Shown here one piece after another: positions 14,034 to 27,887 of a DNA stretch of 28,349 nucleotides; position 1 is the first letter of the stretch; each line of letters starts with the position of its first letter. This DNA is from a virus, in IMG/VR virus record IMGVR_UViG_3300020474_000079, positions 1-28,349 of that record. One strand, given 5' to 3'. Below the pieces are notes generated by a model. The model did not search any database, was not told the DNA's origin, and saw only the letters and a program-made list of their open reading frames with translations. Both the position numbers and the translations under genes were made by a program.

Positions 14034-14705
14034 TTAGTTGAGGCTTATTTCTAGTGATTTAACATCAAACTTAATATTATCGCCAGTATAAACATATCTA
14101 GGATTTGCTAATGCGGCGTACATTAACATGTTTCCAGAACCATGACCTGATTGGTCACATATAGCAACACCAGAAATCCAACCCCAATCTTTGTGAGCCG
14201 TTGGGAATACAATTTGTTCTTTGTTTTTTATAAAGCCATTGCCATCATAAAGAGGATATCCAGCAGAGTTTGTAGTTTGACCCTGCTGCTCTAAATTTGT
14301 AGGAGCGTAAAAATTAACAGATGGGAATTCAGAGAAGGTGCGGGTAATTGCTGTTCCGTTGCTAGTATTTTTACTTTTAGCTGTATTTTCGTTTAAGTAG
14401 TATGGGTAGAAATATCCACTAGTAGCAGGGGTTGTAGTTGATTGATATACAGCATAAGCTGTTGTGTCATCTACGCCAACAGCATCCCACTTAGCAGAGC
14501 TAGGAGCGCCTAAGTCATATCTACTATAATTAGTAGTAACTCCACCTACTCCAGATGCTATTTCTGGCAAAGTTGCTCCAGTGTCAGAGTCCAAAGGAAC
14601 CCCGCTGGTCAAAACTATAGAAATGTTAGTTGGTTTAGTAAAAGCCGTTCCTAAAAACACATGCGTCAGGAGCGAATTCTCTAAATAATCGGACAGAGCA
14701 GCCAT
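14034..14705 (-). CDS. Phage tail fibre/adaptor-type protein (223 aa)
   Basis: The start MAALSDYLENSLLTHVFLGT, followed by AFTKPTNISIVLTSGVPLDSDTG, is the hallmark of a widespread phage tail-fibre family (LSDYxENxLLdHxLGxTAFT...DPTD). The C-terminal half has QIVFPTAHKDWGWISGVAI and NMLMYAAL, matching the family's FPxAxxDWGxVxxxGIxD...LLxxGAL pattern. The length is slightly longer than the usual 130-200 residues because of an insert around residues 100-150. The ATG follows AGGAG by seven bases. It is the first gene after the terminator and heads the fibre operon. It probably connects the fibres to the tail; the attachment role is inferred from the family. Confidence 0.75.
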   Translation of the reverse strand: MAALSDYLENSLLTHVFLGTAFTKPTNISIVLTSGVPLDSDTGATLPEIASGVGGVTTNYSRYDLGAPSSAKWDAVGVDDTTAYAVYQSTTTPATSGYFYPYYLNENTAKSKNTSNGTAITRTFSEFPSVNFYAPTNLEQQGQTTNSAGYPLYDGNGFIKNKEQIVFPTAHKDWGWISGVAICDQSGHGSGNMLMYAALANPRYVYTGDNIKFDVKSLEISLN

Positions 14706-14750: not shown

Positions 14751-14759
14751 TATATACAC
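14751..14759 (-). promoter_or_regulatory. Possible -10 element of fibre operon promoter (GTGTATATA)
   Basis: GTGTATATA on the minus strand lies directly after the T tract of the capsid terminator and 45 bases before the fibre operon's first ATG. It resembles the GTGTATAAT motif seen before two other leftward genes. No clear -35 is present. A promoter is expected here because the terminator would otherwise cut off the fibre genes, but function is inferred. Confidence 0.4.
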
Positions 14760-14793
14760 AAAAAAAGCCACCCCCAAGTAAATGGGAGTGACT
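14760..14793 (-). terminator. Rho-independent terminator after the major capsid gene
   Basis: On the minus strand AGTCACTCCC (14793-14784) pairs with GGGGGTGGCT (14775-14766) over ten base pairs, two of them G-T wobbles, with an 8-base loop and then seven T. It begins 27 bases after the capsid stop codon. It probably separates high-level head-gene transcription from the fibre operon. Confidence 0.85.
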
Positions 14794-16334: not shown

Positions 16335-17018
16335 TTATTTGCTGAGTACGTTGTTTTCAAGCCATTCAGCGACACTCGCTCTTGTGGCTTCTAGTTCTTC
16401 ATTTTCATCAGAAGCGTCAACTAAAGTAGCTTCAGTTGTTTCTACTTCTTCTAGAGCTTCTTCAGCAGCGACTTCTGCTTCAGCTTCTTCAGCTTCTGCT
16501 TCAGCTTCTACTACTTCAGCCGTTGGTTTGATTGGCTTGCCTTCGCTCTCTTCTTCTTCTTTCTTGACAACTTTCTTCTTGTCGTCCATCTTCTTCATTG
16601 CTGTGATGATGGCATCAAAAGTTGTGTCATCGAATTCTTCGTAAGAAGCGAGGGACTCTTCAGCTTCTTCAGCTTCTAGTCCAAGATCAAGAAGTTCTGC
16701 TTTTCTTTTTTCATACTTAGCAGCCTTCTTCATCTTCTGAAGTTCTTCCATCTTTTCCTTCATGTCAGCTTCAACTGTTTCCGCTGATGTCTGAAGTTCT
16801 GTGATTCGTGCTTCCTTTTCAGCAACACTTGCTTCCAAGGCTGTGATTGCTTCGTCTTTTTCAGCAATCGTTTCTTCCAACTTAGCCATAGCTTCAGTAG
16901 TTTCCTTTGAAGCCATTTCAGTAGCTTGAGCTACAAGGGCATCGTTAGTTTCTTTTGCCGATGCTAGCTCACTCTTAAGATCAGCTACTTGCTGTTCTAA
17001 AGCGTTAATATCACTCAT
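16335..17018 (-). CDS. Likely internal-start scaffold protein (227 aa, nested in frame)
   Basis: Codon 265 of the protease-scaffold gene is an ATG (MSDINALEQQVADLK...) preceded by GGAG with eight bases of spacing (GGAGATAATAAC). It falls exactly at the junction between the protease part and the start of the coiled coil. A separately made scaffold from such a nested start is known in lambda (Nu3 within C). Here it is an inference from a good ribosome site and the domain border. Confidence 0.55.
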   Translation of the reverse strand: MSDINALEQQVADLKSELASAKETNDALVAQATEMASKETTEAMAKLEETIAEKDEAITALEASVAEKEARITELQTSAETVEADMKEKMEELQKMKKAAKYEKRKAELLDLGLEAEEAEESLASYEEFDDTTFDAIITAMKKMDDKKKVVKKEEEESEGKPIKPTAEVVEAEAEAEEAEAEVAAEEALEEVETTEATLVDASDENEELEATRASVAEWLENNVLSK

Positions 17019-17810
17019 GTTATTATCTCCATTATTAGGAACAGTTAATAAAATTTCATCTTCGGGGTTTAGAGAGAAAGCTTTGCTAGCATCAAGAATA
17101 ATACTTCTAGGATTCGCTGGCTTAGATACAAGACCTTTGCCAGAGAAAGAAATTTGTCTTAATGATCTACCAATTTTGTAACCTTCATATTCTCCATTAC
17201 CACCATAGGCTCTGAGGTGCTTTGTCAAAAATGCAGAACCTTCATTGCGTTCTAGCAGTTTTGCGTTTCCACCTTCGTCTAATAGCGCGTAATCAAAACC
17301 AGCGAACAAACATTCCATAGAAACAAACCATTTGCCTTCTTCTATTTCAGCAATGATTTGACTCATCTTCTCCCTGTTTTCTGGATCTGTCCAACTATTG
17401 TATAACACAGCCTCAGTGATAATATCGAAATCATCCGGCTGAGTATCACCTTCCACTGGATTTCCATCCCTATCAACGACATAGCTACCAGTTATATGTC
17501 CTATAATATCATTCTCATTATGCATAAGATTAAATTGCTTATCTTCGGGCGTACTACGAGCTGCCCAAGTTTGTGCAGCGTTAAATACGTCGTCATTTTT
17601 GTTCCAACCAGTTGATACCAAAATAGACTTAATATAATATAAATCTACTTGGTCTGGATTGGCACTTTCAGCTTTAACCTTATTAATAAAATCTATGTCT
17701 TTATTGTCCTGAGAGTTAGAAATTGTAGCAGGCATACAATAAGCTATAGACGAACTCGTTTGTACAAGTTCGGCAACGCCGTCATGGATTTCATCTGCAT
17801 AAATTTTCAT
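16335..17810 (-). CDS. Prohead protease fused to scaffold (491 aa)
   Basis: Two parts. Residues about 1-245 look like a head maturation serine protease: TGWNKNDDVF, then QFNLMHNENDIIGHITG with a candidate catalytic His97, EGKWFVSMECLF with a candidate Ser164, and ISFSGKGLVSKPANPRS. Residues about 265-491 are a scaffold: a long coiled coil (LEQQVADLKSELASAKETND; repeated EKDEAITALEASVAEKEARI), then a KMKKAAKYEKRK basic patch, a KKKVVKKEEEESEG segment and an Ala/Glu-rich acidic tail. Such fusions let the scaffold be digested from inside during maturation (family knowledge). The gene sits between portal and decoration genes, as expected. Catalytic residues are assigned by pattern only. Confidence 0.8.
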   Translation of the reverse strand: MKIYADEIHDGVAELVQTSSSIAYCMPATISNSQDNKDIDFINKVKAESANPDQVDLYYIKSILVSTGWNKNDDVFNAAQTWAARSTPEDKQFNLMHNENDIIGHITGSYVVDRDGNPVEGDTQPDDFDIITEAVLYNSWTDPENREKMSQIIAEIEEGKWFVSMECLFAGFDYALLDEGGNAKLLERNEGSAFLTKHLRAYGGNGEYEGYKIGRSLRQISFSGKGLVSKPANPRSIILDASKAFSLNPEDEILLTVPNNGDNNMSDINALEQQVADLKSELASAKETNDALVAQATEMASKETTEAMAKLEETIAEKDEAITALEASVAEKEARITELQTSAETVEADMKEKMEELQKMKKAAKYEKRKAELLDLGLEAEEAEESLASYEEFDDTTFDAIITAMKKMDDKKKVVKKEEEESEGKPIKPTAEVVEAEAEAEEAEAEVAAEEALEEVETTEATLVDASDENEELEATRASVAEWLENNVLSK

Positions 17811-17827: not shown

Positions 17828-17836
17828 ATTATACAC
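17828..17836 (-). promoter_or_regulatory. GTGTATAAT motif before the protease-scaffold gene
   Basis: The minus strand reads GTGTATAAT in the 48-base gap between portal and protease-scaffold genes, with its last base 17 bases before the ATG. It is identical over nine bases to the motif before the first leftward gene at 27248. No -35-like hexamer lies 16-18 bases upstream. It may be a -10-only promoter; the leader would be only about ten bases, with the AGAGG ribosome site near its 5' end. Confidence 0.4.
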
Positions 17837-25123: not shown

Positions 25124-25921
25124 TTATTTAACTGTGTCAGGTGTTAAGAAAGGTTGGTCTACAGTTTTATCCTCATACGTATGATAATCGCTTAACCTGT
25201 CCTTTTGTTTTTCGACCGCCATTCTCATTTGTTCCATCTCTATCCCGTATCTATTTAGCTTATCTGGATCTTGCATAAGAGTTATAATCCAGCTGGTAAA
25301 ACTCTCTTTAGAGTCCTCAAGTCTTTTGATTCTCTGCTCTCTTGTCCCCTTAACGTCTTTTAAAAGTTTCGACTTTTTATCCTGCAACGACTGAAACTCT
25401 CTATCTCTACTTTCCAGACCAGCACTTAAAGAAGCTCTCTGCCTCTCAAGATTGATAATATAATCAATGTCCTGCTGATCTTTGTCTCTAGATCGTTCGT
25501 CAAATATCATTTTATTATATGTATCAATTTGACTTTGCGAAGACTGTATAGAAGTCAGGCATCTGTCACCCAGTAATTCATATTTAATAATATCTAATAT
25601 CTGTATTTCTTCAGTGTGTAATACGTCTCCCTTAAACTGAGCTACCATTTCAGACCACTTGTATTCAAGTAGCATTAGCTCTGCGTCATTAAACTGAGCT
25701 GTGAGAGTAGGCCAGAAGGGACGTTTTTTTAAATCATACTTAGCCTCTTCCTGATCAGTAGTATTTACGCTGTAATGTTTCTTAAACATGTTTTCTACAG
25801 CTTCAACGTTTCTGCCGGATGCTACTGCTATCTGAGCTATAGATTGGCCCCGATCATACATATCCTTCATCTCAACTCGTTCAAGATCTGAAATACGCCC
25901 TTTAGGTTTTTGCTTAGCCAT
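25124..25921 (-). CDS. Candidate terminase small subunit (HTH plus coiled coil, 265 aa)
   Basis: The N-terminus holds a helix-turn-helix (ISDLERVEMKDMYDRGQSIA, then QIAVASGRNVEAVENMFKKH; residues about 10-50) of the kind found in small terminase subunits and sigma region 4. A central segment (LTAQFNDAELMLLEYKWSEM) is followed by a long coiled coil (about residues 125-220: SQSQIDTYNKMIFDERSRDK ... LQDKKSKLLKDVKGTREQRI). HTH plus coiled-coil oligomerisation and a place upstream of terL fit TerS. It is separated from terL by seven genes, which weakens the case. It overlaps the sigma-like gene by eight bases (ATGGCTAA). It could alternatively be a DNA-binding regulator. Confidence 0.55.
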   Translation of the reverse strand: MAKQKPKGRISDLERVEMKDMYDRGQSIAQIAVASGRNVEAVENMFKKHYSVNTTDQEEAKYDLKKRPFWPTLTAQFNDAELMLLEYKWSEMVAQFKGDVLHTEEIQILDIIKYELLGDRCLTSIQSSQSQIDTYNKMIFDERSRDKDQQDIDYIINLERQRASLSAGLESRDREFQSLQDKKSKLLKDVKGTREQRIKRLEDSKESFTSWIITLMQDPDKLNRYGIEMEQMRMAVEKQKDRLSDYHTYEDKTVDQPFLTPDTVK

Positions 25922-26402
25922 TTTTATTACCTTCCAATATTTCCTGTATAATACTTACAATTTCATCTTTTCTCTTTTTAGATACATGTACGTCATTCAT
26001 AATTTTCAAATAGTCTGATCTATATTCTATAGGGAGTTCTTTGTCTATAATATTAATAATCTCAGAGTTCTCTAGTGATAATGAGTATTTGGTGTCCTCT
26101 ATAGCGTATTCGTTAGAAAGCTGGTTAGGTACAAGAACTTTACGTTTTTCCTCATCAGATTTAGTGAAATTATTGTCTCTAATAAAATTCTTAAGCCTGT
26201 TGGATAGATTTACTGAAAGAAAGTTTTCTAATGGGCGTTTTTGGTCATATCTATTAAGGGCATCTAAACATATTAAGAAAGACTCTTGTTTTATATCATC
26301 TACCTCATAACCATTAAATGTATATTTGGGTGCTATCCTATTAATAACAAGCTGTATTTTATCCATGACTTGTTCTCTAGTCATATTCTTAGGTATCTTC
26401 AT
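25914..26402 (-). CDS. Sigma-70 region-2-like factor (162 aa)
   Basis: Residues about 24-77 match region 2 of sigma-70 factors: APKYTFNGYEVDDIKQESFL, then ICLDALNRYDQKRPLENFLS, VNLSNRLKNFIRDN. The DDIKQE segment matches the core-binding helix, and RPLENFL..NLSNRLKNFIRD the -10 recognition helix. A C-terminal part of about 80 residues is helical and basic near its end (HVSKKRKDEIVSIIQEILEG) but is not a convincing region 4. This one-domain plan resembles T4 gp55, the late sigma factor that recognises only a -10 element (family knowledge). A late-transcription role is inferred. It overlaps the upstream gene by 14 bases and the candidate terS by eight. Confidence 0.75.
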   Translation of the reverse strand: MKIPKNMTREQVMDKIQLVINRIAPKYTFNGYEVDDIKQESFLICLDALNRYDQKRPLENFLSVNLSNRLKNFIRDNNFTKSDEEKRKVLVPNQLSNEYAIEDTKYSLSLENSEIINIIDKELPIEYRSDYLKIMNDVHVSKKRKDEIVSIIQEILEGNKNG

Positions 26403-27096
26403 AAACTAATGTTCTCCATCGTGAACCATCATAACACCTGAGTTGATTAGTGTCAACATCATAGTAAAGCGTCCCTGCTTTATGGTCAGGCTTGGTAGAA
26501 GGAGAAATAGTTATTTGGGGCGTTTTTATTTTTTTAACATCAAGTCTAGAACATTTCAAGGAAATAAGTTTAGTTACTTTACATAAAGCTTTTTTAATAC
26601 CTTCACAAAAGTCTGGTAGGGTATCAATCTTGGAAAACTCTACGGAAGTAGGTACGTGGGGTTCTTCGCAAGTTACAATAGTATAGGGTTTATATAGTAA
26701 TTCTGAATTATCACTGGGGCGATGGGAACATATCAATAAGGTTTCACCCTCACTAGTACATTCACAAGACATAAGCTGGGTAGCTGGAGACAAACCTTTA
26801 TCGGGTCTCCCTTGATATAGGGGTCTATCTCTTACAAGTATATCATTTAATCCTTCAAAATTGTCTGGTTCAAGATGACCAATACCAACTTCGTAGCATG
26901 TACGCTGTCCGTTGACGACTATGCTGGCATTATAGAAGAACTGATTAGTATAACCATATACTTCTACAAATGTCCTACCAGCAATAGCAGCTCCTCTTAT
27001 AACATCAGAAATTTTATCATTGCCAAGTAGGTGGATCTTACCGTTTAGGTCTTGTGCCATCTCTACCGACAGGTCCGTGCTGATCTTCAGATTCAT
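26389..27096 (-). CDS. Hypothetical protein with fibre-type C-terminus (235 aa)
   Basis: The main part is not recognised. The N-terminal 60 residues (AQDLNGKIHLLGNDKISDVI, then RGAAIAGRTFVEVYGYTNQF) are followed by a cysteine-containing stretch (LMSCECTSEGETLLICSHRP). The last about 35 residues (AGTLYYDVDTNQLRCYDGSR, WRTL) match the GTLYYDxDTxxLxxYDGxxW module that ends many fibre and structural proteins of aquatic phages. The start at 27096 has AGGA ten bases upstream and overlaps the previous gene by 59 bases; an internal ATG at 27060 would overlap by only 23 but has a poorer ribosome site. A virion role is suggested by the C-terminus but is odd for the second gene of the operon. Confidence 0.55.
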   Translation of the reverse strand: MNLKISTDLSVEMAQDLNGKIHLLGNDKISDVIRGAAIAGRTFVEVYGYTNQFFYNASIVVNGQRTCYEVGIGHLEPDNFEGLNDILVRDRPLYQGRPDKGLSPATQLMSCECTSEGETLLICSHRPSDNSELLYKPYTIVTCEEPHVPTSVEFSKIDTLPDFCEGIKKALCKVTKLISLKCSRLDVKKIKTPQITISPSTKPDHKAGTLYYDVDTNQLRCYDGSRWRTLVYEDT

Positions 27097-27229
27097 CTTT
27101 TTCTAGTCCTGTTATTAATCCTGCTATCGAAATGTCTGGTAAGTTCAAGTCTGATAGAACGCTTTCCTTGAGTTCTGCCGTTGCACGACAATGCAATTCA
27201 GATTCTAATTGTTTAGGCTTATCATTCAT
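27038..27229 (-). CDS. First gene of the leftward operon, hypothetical (63 aa)
   Basis: Begins MNDKPKQLESELHCRATAEL and ends with a polar, charged tail (EKDESEDQHGPVGRDGTRPK). It has no recognisable domain or membrane segment. I chose the ATG ending at 27229: GGAG lies seven bases upstream (GGAGAAATAATATG). The frame is open upstream to 27373, but the added residues are hydrophobic and lack such a site. It is the first gene after the divergent control region, so it may be made early in the leftward transcript. Confidence 0.6.
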   Translation of the reverse strand: MNDKPKQLESELHCRATAELKESVLSDLNLPDISIAGLITGLEKDESEDQHGPVGRDGTRPKR

Positions 27230-27247: not shown

Positions 27248-27256
27248 ATTATACAC
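27248..27256 (-). promoter_or_regulatory. Candidate leftward promoter (GTGTATAAT)
   Basis: Minus-strand GTGTATAAT ends 18 bases before the first leftward ATG. TATAAT is a perfect -10, but the position for a -35 (TAGTCT at 17-base spacing) is poor. The same nine bases occur before the protease-scaffold gene. It may be read by the phage sigma-like factor or be a weak host promoter. Confidence 0.45.
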
Positions 27257-27372: not shown

Positions 27373-27400
27373 TACCAAAGTAGGGGTTAAGTCTTTGGTA
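27373..27400. promoter_or_regulatory. Perfect inverted repeat TACCAAAG-N12-CTTTGGTA
   Basis: Eight-base perfect arms with a 12-base loop in the divergent control region. No T tract follows on either strand, so it is not a normal terminator. An operator for a dimeric regulator or an mRNA hairpin is possible. Confidence 0.5.
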
Positions 27401-27428
27401 CTAAAATAGCCGGGGTTCCCAAAATGGT

Positions 27429-27457
27429 CGTAAGTCTATACTGGCAAAGGACTTACG
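27429..27457. promoter_or_regulatory. Perfect inverted repeat CGTAAGTC-N13-GACTTACG
   Basis: A second eight-base perfect inverted repeat with a 13-base loop, 28 bases after the first and 51 bases before the rightward -35. The two have different arms but almost the same spacing. Followed by an A/T-only stretch on the right (ATAAATAATAATAATAAAAA). Function inferred as regulatory. Confidence 0.5.
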
Positions 27458-27508
27458 TGTGATAAATAATAATAATAAAAAAATATCCAATAATTCCTAA
27501 ATTAGTGC

Positions 27509-27537
27509 TTGACAAATGCCGATACTATGTATATACT
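27509..27537 (+). promoter_or_regulatory. Strong sigma-70 promoter for the rightward operon
   Basis: TTGACA at 27509-27514, a 17-base spacer and TATACT at 27532-27537: a perfect -35 and five of six matches to the -10 consensus. The expected start near 27544 gives a leader of about 34 bases before the first rightward ATG. Host RNA polymerase should read it without phage factors, as expected for early genes. Confidence 0.85.
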
Positions 27538-27577
27538 TAGGATATAAGAAACAAACAATTAACCAAAGGAATTTAAA

Positions 27578-27709
27578 ATGTTAAACTACCCAACAATTTA
27601 CACTACCGATTGCTGCGGATCTTACTGCGAAAATGATACTGACATCTGCCCTGATTGCCAAGAACACTGCGAAGTAGTTACAGAAACTTTTGAAATTGCA
27701 GTTGACTAA
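27578..27709 (+). CDS. Cysteine-rich mini-protein (43 aa)
   Basis: MLNYPTIYTTDCCGSYCEND, then TDICPDCQEHCEVVTETFEIAVD. Cys residues at 12, 13, 17, 24, 27 and 31 (CCxxxC ... CPxC ... C) could bind one zinc as a minimal ribbon, and the protein is strongly acidic. AAAGGA lies seven bases before the ATG, behind a strong promoter, so expression is likely although the gene is short. Small acidic or zinc-binding early proteins of phages often bind host RNA polymerase or nucleases (general knowledge); no specific target can be named. Confidence 0.65.
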   Translation: MLNYPTIYTTDCCGSYCENDTDICPDCQEHCEVVTETFEIAVD

Positions 27710-27730
27710 TTAAAGTTTACAGTGTAGAAT
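27702..27730 (+). promoter_or_regulatory. Second sigma-70 promoter (TTGACT-N17-TAGAAT)
   Basis: TTGACT at 27702-27707 overlaps the stop codon of the mini-protein gene. After exactly 17 bases comes TAGAAT at 27725-27730, preceded by the GTG seen in the leftward motif. It would serve the genes from 27762 onward. Confidence 0.6.
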
Positions 27731-27761
27731 GTCGATATACTTATTAGGAGGAAAAGTTATT

Positions 27762-27887
27762 ATGGGATTTTACGAAGAACTCGATCAGTACGAAGCACGG
27801 GCCGAATATGAGGCTTGGCTTGACGAGCAAGAAGATTTTATGGTACGATGTCACGAACAGGAAATATCGCCGGAGGTAGTAGAATGA
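27762..27887 (+). CDS. Acidic small protein (41 aa)
   Basis: MGFYEELDQYEARAEYEAWL, then DEQEDFMVRCHEQEISPEVVE: very acidic and probably one long helix. AGGAGG, the best ribosome site in the window, lies ten bases before the ATG. Its TGA overlaps the next ATG (ATGA). No family recognised. A small early protein is inferred from promoter and size. Confidence 0.65.
   Translation: MGFYEELDQYEARAEYEAWLDEQEDFMVRCHEQEISPEVVE

Follow-up and report, generated by a model that had tools for sequence, protein, structure and literature searches.

The window, by which we mean the whole 28,349-nt stretch of viral DNA analysed here, appears to encode a phage late sigma factor that is reduced to region 2 and reads promoters made of one -10 element without a -35 element; we put the probability of this reading at roughly 0.8. 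With such a factor, this uncultured phage would probably reprogramme the RNA polymerase of its host much as T4 does, with a different DNA specificity and in an unrelated lineage.

A sigma-70 region-2 protein and its family

The ORF at 25914-26402 (minus strand) encodes a sigma-70 region-2 protein. It starts with ATG, runs for 162 codons and coincides exactly with the ORF in which the first-pass annotation had recognised a sigma-like factor, an assignment borne out by Pfam, by the alignment of relatives and by family-profile matches to solved sigma factors.

25914..26402, minus strand: region-2-only sigma factor gene, 162 aa (ORF call, Pfam, family alignment)
26169..26339, minus strand: sigma-70 region 2 homology, residues 22-78 (Pfam, alignment, model pLDDT)
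25923..26075, minus strand: conserved three-helix C-terminal domain, residues 110-160, LPxxYRxDYLK...KKRK (alignment, model)

Sigma70_r2 (PF04542) was the single family matched in the Pfam scan of the 162-aa protein (residues 22-78, E 5.6e-6), scoring 26.5 bits against a curated cut-off of 24, and it was likewise matched in 48/48 aligned relatives (best E 7.5e-8). Region 2 of the protein holds both a core-binding segment (DDIKQE) and a -10-melting segment (RPLENFL), and the family profile matched the solved sigma factors 8x6g_H (E 1.4e-5) and SigW (E 2.9e-4). Relatives were found at 57 viral-contig loci (25-68% identity), with six more in microbial genome contigs, and nine residues within region 2 are invariant across the family (D36, Q39, R56, L58, F61, L62, R69, L70 and R75). 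An ORF kept in 57 viral contigs, at identities as low as 25% and with these residues invariant, cannot be due to chance. A tblastn search of GenBank phages with three family members as queries returned no match. Members of a distant clade (L054, L055, L057, L105, L106 and L107) carry a cysteine-rich insertion (CxxC...C...C), possibly a zinc knuckle, just after the long region-2 helix.

Predicted fold and absence of region 4

The AlphaFold2 model of the 162-aa protein has a mean pLDDT of 79, with 56 residues at 90 or above and the best values in residues 11-80. Helices at 9-27 and 34-49 and a very long one at 58-90 (33 residues) make up the sigma-2 bundle; past the long helix lies a low-confidence stretch (residues 85-108, a disordered linker), followed by C-terminal helices at 110-122, 125-135 and 142-160. 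A Foldseek search with this model returned mainly sigma factors as top matches, none of them at E 0.001 or better, with the best overlap to the N-terminal domain of SigE (TM 0.74 by target); T4 gp55 in the open complex (7d7c) was matched weakly, lower in the list. Phage sigma factors were also obtained from a viral structure library. Had a non-sigma helical family matched better, this would have spoken against the initial assignment; none did, and sigma structures prevail among the top matches of both fold searches.

The proposal that the protein has region 2 without region 4 was upheld. The region 4 profile (PF04545) matched nothing in the window, the sigma ORF included. A family profile of the C-terminal 58 residues, compared with sigma factors that bear region 4, reached Prob 1% (E 0.055), leaving an assignment of the C-terminal domain to region 4 unsupported. 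This profile does not resemble the gp55 C-terminus either. The three C-terminal helices might nonetheless be read as a reduced region 4 still able to touch the beta flap, which would make this a complete sigma factor. The LPxxYRxDYLK motif does recall the start of region 4, with three helices and not four, but the score against true region-4 sigmas, a helix-turn-helix that would lack its first helix and the absence of a -35 element from the late sites described below make such a domain unlikely.

A GTGTATA element upstream of late genes

Promoter motifs were sought in four relatives (G001-G004, 126-155 kb) and the window, each divided between a late structural block and all remaining sequence. 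An unbiased k-mer search of 41 late intergenic gaps ranked GTGTATA as the most enriched 7-mer, above the ribosome-binding site: 15/41 late gaps contain it, always on the sense strand, where dinucleotide shuffles would give 0.17, and about two thirds of the gaps have no exact copy. Run on phiEco32 as a positive control, the search recovered TAATGTA in 3/10 gaps beside terminator and ribosome-binding-site words; the method is sensitive yet not clean on few gaps.

Across all loci, 18 of 22 distinct upstreams of the scaffold/protease gene carry the element, as do 4/4 of those of a 223-aa post-capsid gene (g223), as against 6/421 for fourteen other syntenic genes; five of these six lie before the portal gene (Fisher p 5e-28 for the two genes versus the others, uncorrected for relatedness of the sequences). 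Counts over whole genomes are at chance level in G002, G003 and G004 and modestly higher in G001 (29 vs 20.6 expected), and the window has 4 copies against 4.4 expected, so that the information lies solely in where the element stands relative to genes. The window itself contributes two late sites and one at an operon head; most of this positional signal is supplied by the relatives.

17830..17836, minus strand: predicted late promoter with GTGTATA, lying 26 nt ahead of the scaffold/protease gene (16335-17810) (motif, orthologous placement)
14753..14759, minus strand: predicted late promoter with GTGTATA, lying 54 nt ahead of gene 14034-14705 (motif, orthologous placement)
14760..14790, minus strand: GC-rich hairpin with T-run, terminator-like, after the major capsid gene (read in the sequence)
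27250..27256, minus strand: GTGTATA(AT), a promoter-like element ahead of the small ORF 27038-27229 (motif)

The hairpin at 14760-14790 directly abuts the late promoter at 14753-14759, a stop-and-restart layout also present in G002, G003, G004 and G013. The place equivalent to 27250-27256 is occupied by the element in 17 distinct loci. The first-pass annotation had suggested that the factor could activate the later head and fibre genes. The promoters found stand before the scaffold/protease and 223-aa genes. In the window, no gap ahead of a fibre gene contains GTGTATA; transcription would get to the fibre genes by read-through.

Two promoter classes

Two promoter classes are present, late GTGTATA and early TATAAT. 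A perfect TTGACA at 15-19 bp accompanies 0/29 distinct late sites versus 14/43 early TATAAT sites (p 2.6e-4); relative to shuffled sequence, the -35 signal of the late sites is slightly raised (z 2.6) and that of the early sites reaches z 11. A purine occupies element position +15, the expected start place, in 26 of the 29 late sites. The promoters with a -10 element only that the first-pass annotation had predicted are thereby recovered by motif analysis, as GTGTATA without a -35 before late genes, in the window and in its relatives. The early intergenic DNA (about 24650-31900 in G002 and 27373-27848 in the window) also contains recurrent inverted elements of the type TAAGTCCTT...TATAGACTTA.

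We considered whether host sigma-70 holoenzyme could read the late GTGTATAnT sites with the help of a phage activator in the style of T4 MotA or lambda CII, leaving the region-2 protein to act otherwise, for example by displacing the host sigma. A perfect TATAAT, readable by host sigma, does lie inside 11/29 late sites, and the sigma-operon sites of several loci have TTGnnA at 17-18 bp, so that this class at least could be host-read. Yet in orthologous late promoters it is the GTG directly before TATA that is near-invariant, whereas the last T of the -10 is present in only 20/29 sites, and GTG-TATA differs by one base from the classical TGnTATAAT. Nor was a second conserved box, as an activator would use, found between -50 and -6 of the late promoters. 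We regard reading by the host holoenzyme as improbable and prefer the region-2 sigma as the reader of these sites.

The sigma operon and its overlapping neighbour

The first-pass annotation put the sigma gene early in the leftward operon, and it does lie at the head of this late operon, where it is flanked as follows.

27038-27229: small ORF heading the sigma operon
26389..27096, minus strand: weakly conserved gene (235 aa) that precedes sigma within the same operon (ORF, synteny)
25124..25921, minus strand: neighbour gene downstream of sigma and overlapping it, co-inherited (synteny, family and fold searches)

The presence of a GTGTATAAT element upstream of this operon suggests that it may be positively autoregulated.

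The product of 25124-25921 has an N-terminal helix-turn-helix, a long coiled coil and a conserved tail, and its gene adjoins and overlaps the sigma gene, and is inherited with it, in nearly all loci, distant ones too. Fold and family searches gave no significant match that would prove it a small terminase, with the HK97 small terminase among its weak fold matches. Given its place upstream of the large terminase gene, we consider it probably a small terminase and possibly a transcription partner.

The second of these roles would fit a split sigma factor, in which the 162-aa protein would provide region 2 and the neighbour a function like that of region 4 or gp33, the two acting jointly as a late initiation factor. 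Besides the adjacency, overlap and co-inheritance of the genes, 8/32 members of the neighbour family match Sigma70_r4_2 (PF08281), weakly (best E 0.0014). However, the helix-turn-helix matches are generic and weak (HTH_38, HTH_23 and Terminase_5 are hit as well), the protein is mostly coiled coil with a terminase among its fold matches, the gene lies upstream of that for the large terminase, and the late promoters have no conserved upstream element for a partner to read. A division of labour of this kind seems to us very improbable; if it were true and the neighbour were the small terminase, late transcription may be coupled to DNA packaging.

Comparison with known sigma factors

Late sigma factors without region 4 are known from T4-like and phiEco32-like phages (PMC2988020, PMC8948821). 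Our best reading, by analogy, is that the protein works like the two closest known cases, T4 gp55 and phiEco32 gp36. Membership in the gp55 or gp36 family is not implied, as lineage, clamp motif and promoter sequence differ.

Like gp55, the protein has region 2 and no region 4, so that region 4 is no requirement for the sigma-70 superfamily; and its predicted late promoters have a -10 element and no -35. The last bundle helix of the AlphaFold2 model is very long (58-90) and resembles H4 of gp55, which by cryo-EM far exceeds the length usual in sigma region 2 (PMC7892883). A helix-loop-helix comes after the extended H4 in gp55, whereas the model continues with the disordered linker. The beta-prime clamp-helix contacts of gp55 are E70, D74 and E77 (PMC7892883). 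In the profile alignment, E70 corresponds to D36 and D74 to E40, giving acidic residues at two of the three contacts, while E77 falls on L43. The alignment itself is marginal (hhalign Prob 65%, E 6e-5, 49 columns), and a late-sigma PHROG was matched by 4/48 family members (best 0.01). The gp55 plan put forward by the first-pass annotation stands for architecture, region 2 only, while homology amounts to this weak profile match.

Unlike gp55, the protein is associated with GTGTATA and not with promoters of the T4 TATAAATA type, and TATAAATA is absent from the enriched words in the k-mer search of late gaps. Its C-terminal domain differs, and the C-termini of the family vary (HGYEER, HGHA, DEEG) and share no hydrophobic sliding-clamp-binding motif. 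A search for the clamp gp45 with PF02916 gave no match and missed the cyanophage controls as well, so that this negative says nothing about a clamp. In T4, gp33 is the partner of gp55 in place of region 4 (PMC7892883). Finally, the terminase, capsid and polymerase of the phage are unrelated to those of T4.

No region 4 homology is reported for phiEco32 gp36, which uses a single promoter element, tAATGTAtA, with starts 6-8 bp downstream (PMC8948821). The present system resembles it in lacking region 4, in the single-element promoters found by motif analysis and in early genes on host sigma-70; tAATGTAtA and GTGTATA have TGTATA in common, and the expected start likewise lies 6-8 bp downstream. 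Sequence similarity to gp36 is not significant (Prob 1.9%, E 0.026), and phiEco32, a podovirus, is of a different lineage. The sequence and fold of region 2 are like those of ECF sigmas (SigW, SigE, CnrH), but these carry region 4 and read a -35, whereas this family is without region 4.

Proposed mechanism

In the mechanism that we propose, the sigma factor would be expressed from the head of the late operon and would bind host RNA polymerase through its region 2.2 helix (D36/Q39/E40), for which we suggest the role of the corresponding gp55 helix, the binding of the beta-prime clamp helices. It would guide the polymerase to a single element at the -10 position (consensus TTTTnGTGTATAnT) without a -35, and transcription would begin at a purine about 7 bp beyond the element. 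Promoters of the TTTTnGTGTATAnT type would drive the scaffold/protease, post-capsid and other virion genes, with early genes served by ordinary host sigma-70 promoters (TTGACA-N17-TATAAT). We infer from co-occurrence that the sigma reads the GTGTATA motif; the timing, too, is inferred. The motif persists where sigma identity falls to 30-33% (L054, L055). Searches of 13 related records gave no RNA polymerase beta subunit, as would be expected if the core enzyme is that of the host.

Several relatives encode a second sigma, which is ECF-like and has region 4 (G001:C1:68067-68573 and G003:C1:25926-26399, also G009, G013, L098 and L099). An HMM of this protein had no match in G002, G004 or the window, all of which bear GTGTATA, and it was rejected as the reader of the motif on account of this absence. 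The region-2 sigma is the sigma-like factor common to the motif-bearing records.

Phage lineage and distribution

On sequence grounds, the phage genome is not T4-like. The large terminase shares 26% identity with Bacillus Slash-like phages and Microcystis phage MaeS, and the major capsid protein weakly matches that of Bacillus phage G. The replication module of G002 comprises a phrog_405-type DNA polymerase in two ORFs, a primase, a DnaB-type helicase and a UvsX-like recombinase. The two polymerase ORFs of G002 (L074:218-1819 and L074:2644-4266) match the two successive halves of a single PHROG and are separated by other ORFs.

Relatives of the sigma factor also turn up in a SAR202 MAG contig and, among planctomycetes, in chromosomes or MAGs. 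One, in the complete chromosome of Limnoglobus roseus, has a scaffold/protease homologue close by (L104, 5001-9007), and another lies in a Singulisphaera MAG beside an integrase-like gene (L105, 5001-5570); both loci are probable planctomycete prophage remnants.

Significance

If our reading is true, these phages hold a further group of region-2-only late sigma factors with -10-only promoters and a readable promoter code of their own, in a lineage that is widespread and without a relative in the GenBank phage collection searched. The consensus would permit late genes to be called from sequence in uncultured contigs, and the family would offer a natural set for mapping the region 2 residues that choose GTG-TATA over TATAAATA or AATGTATA.
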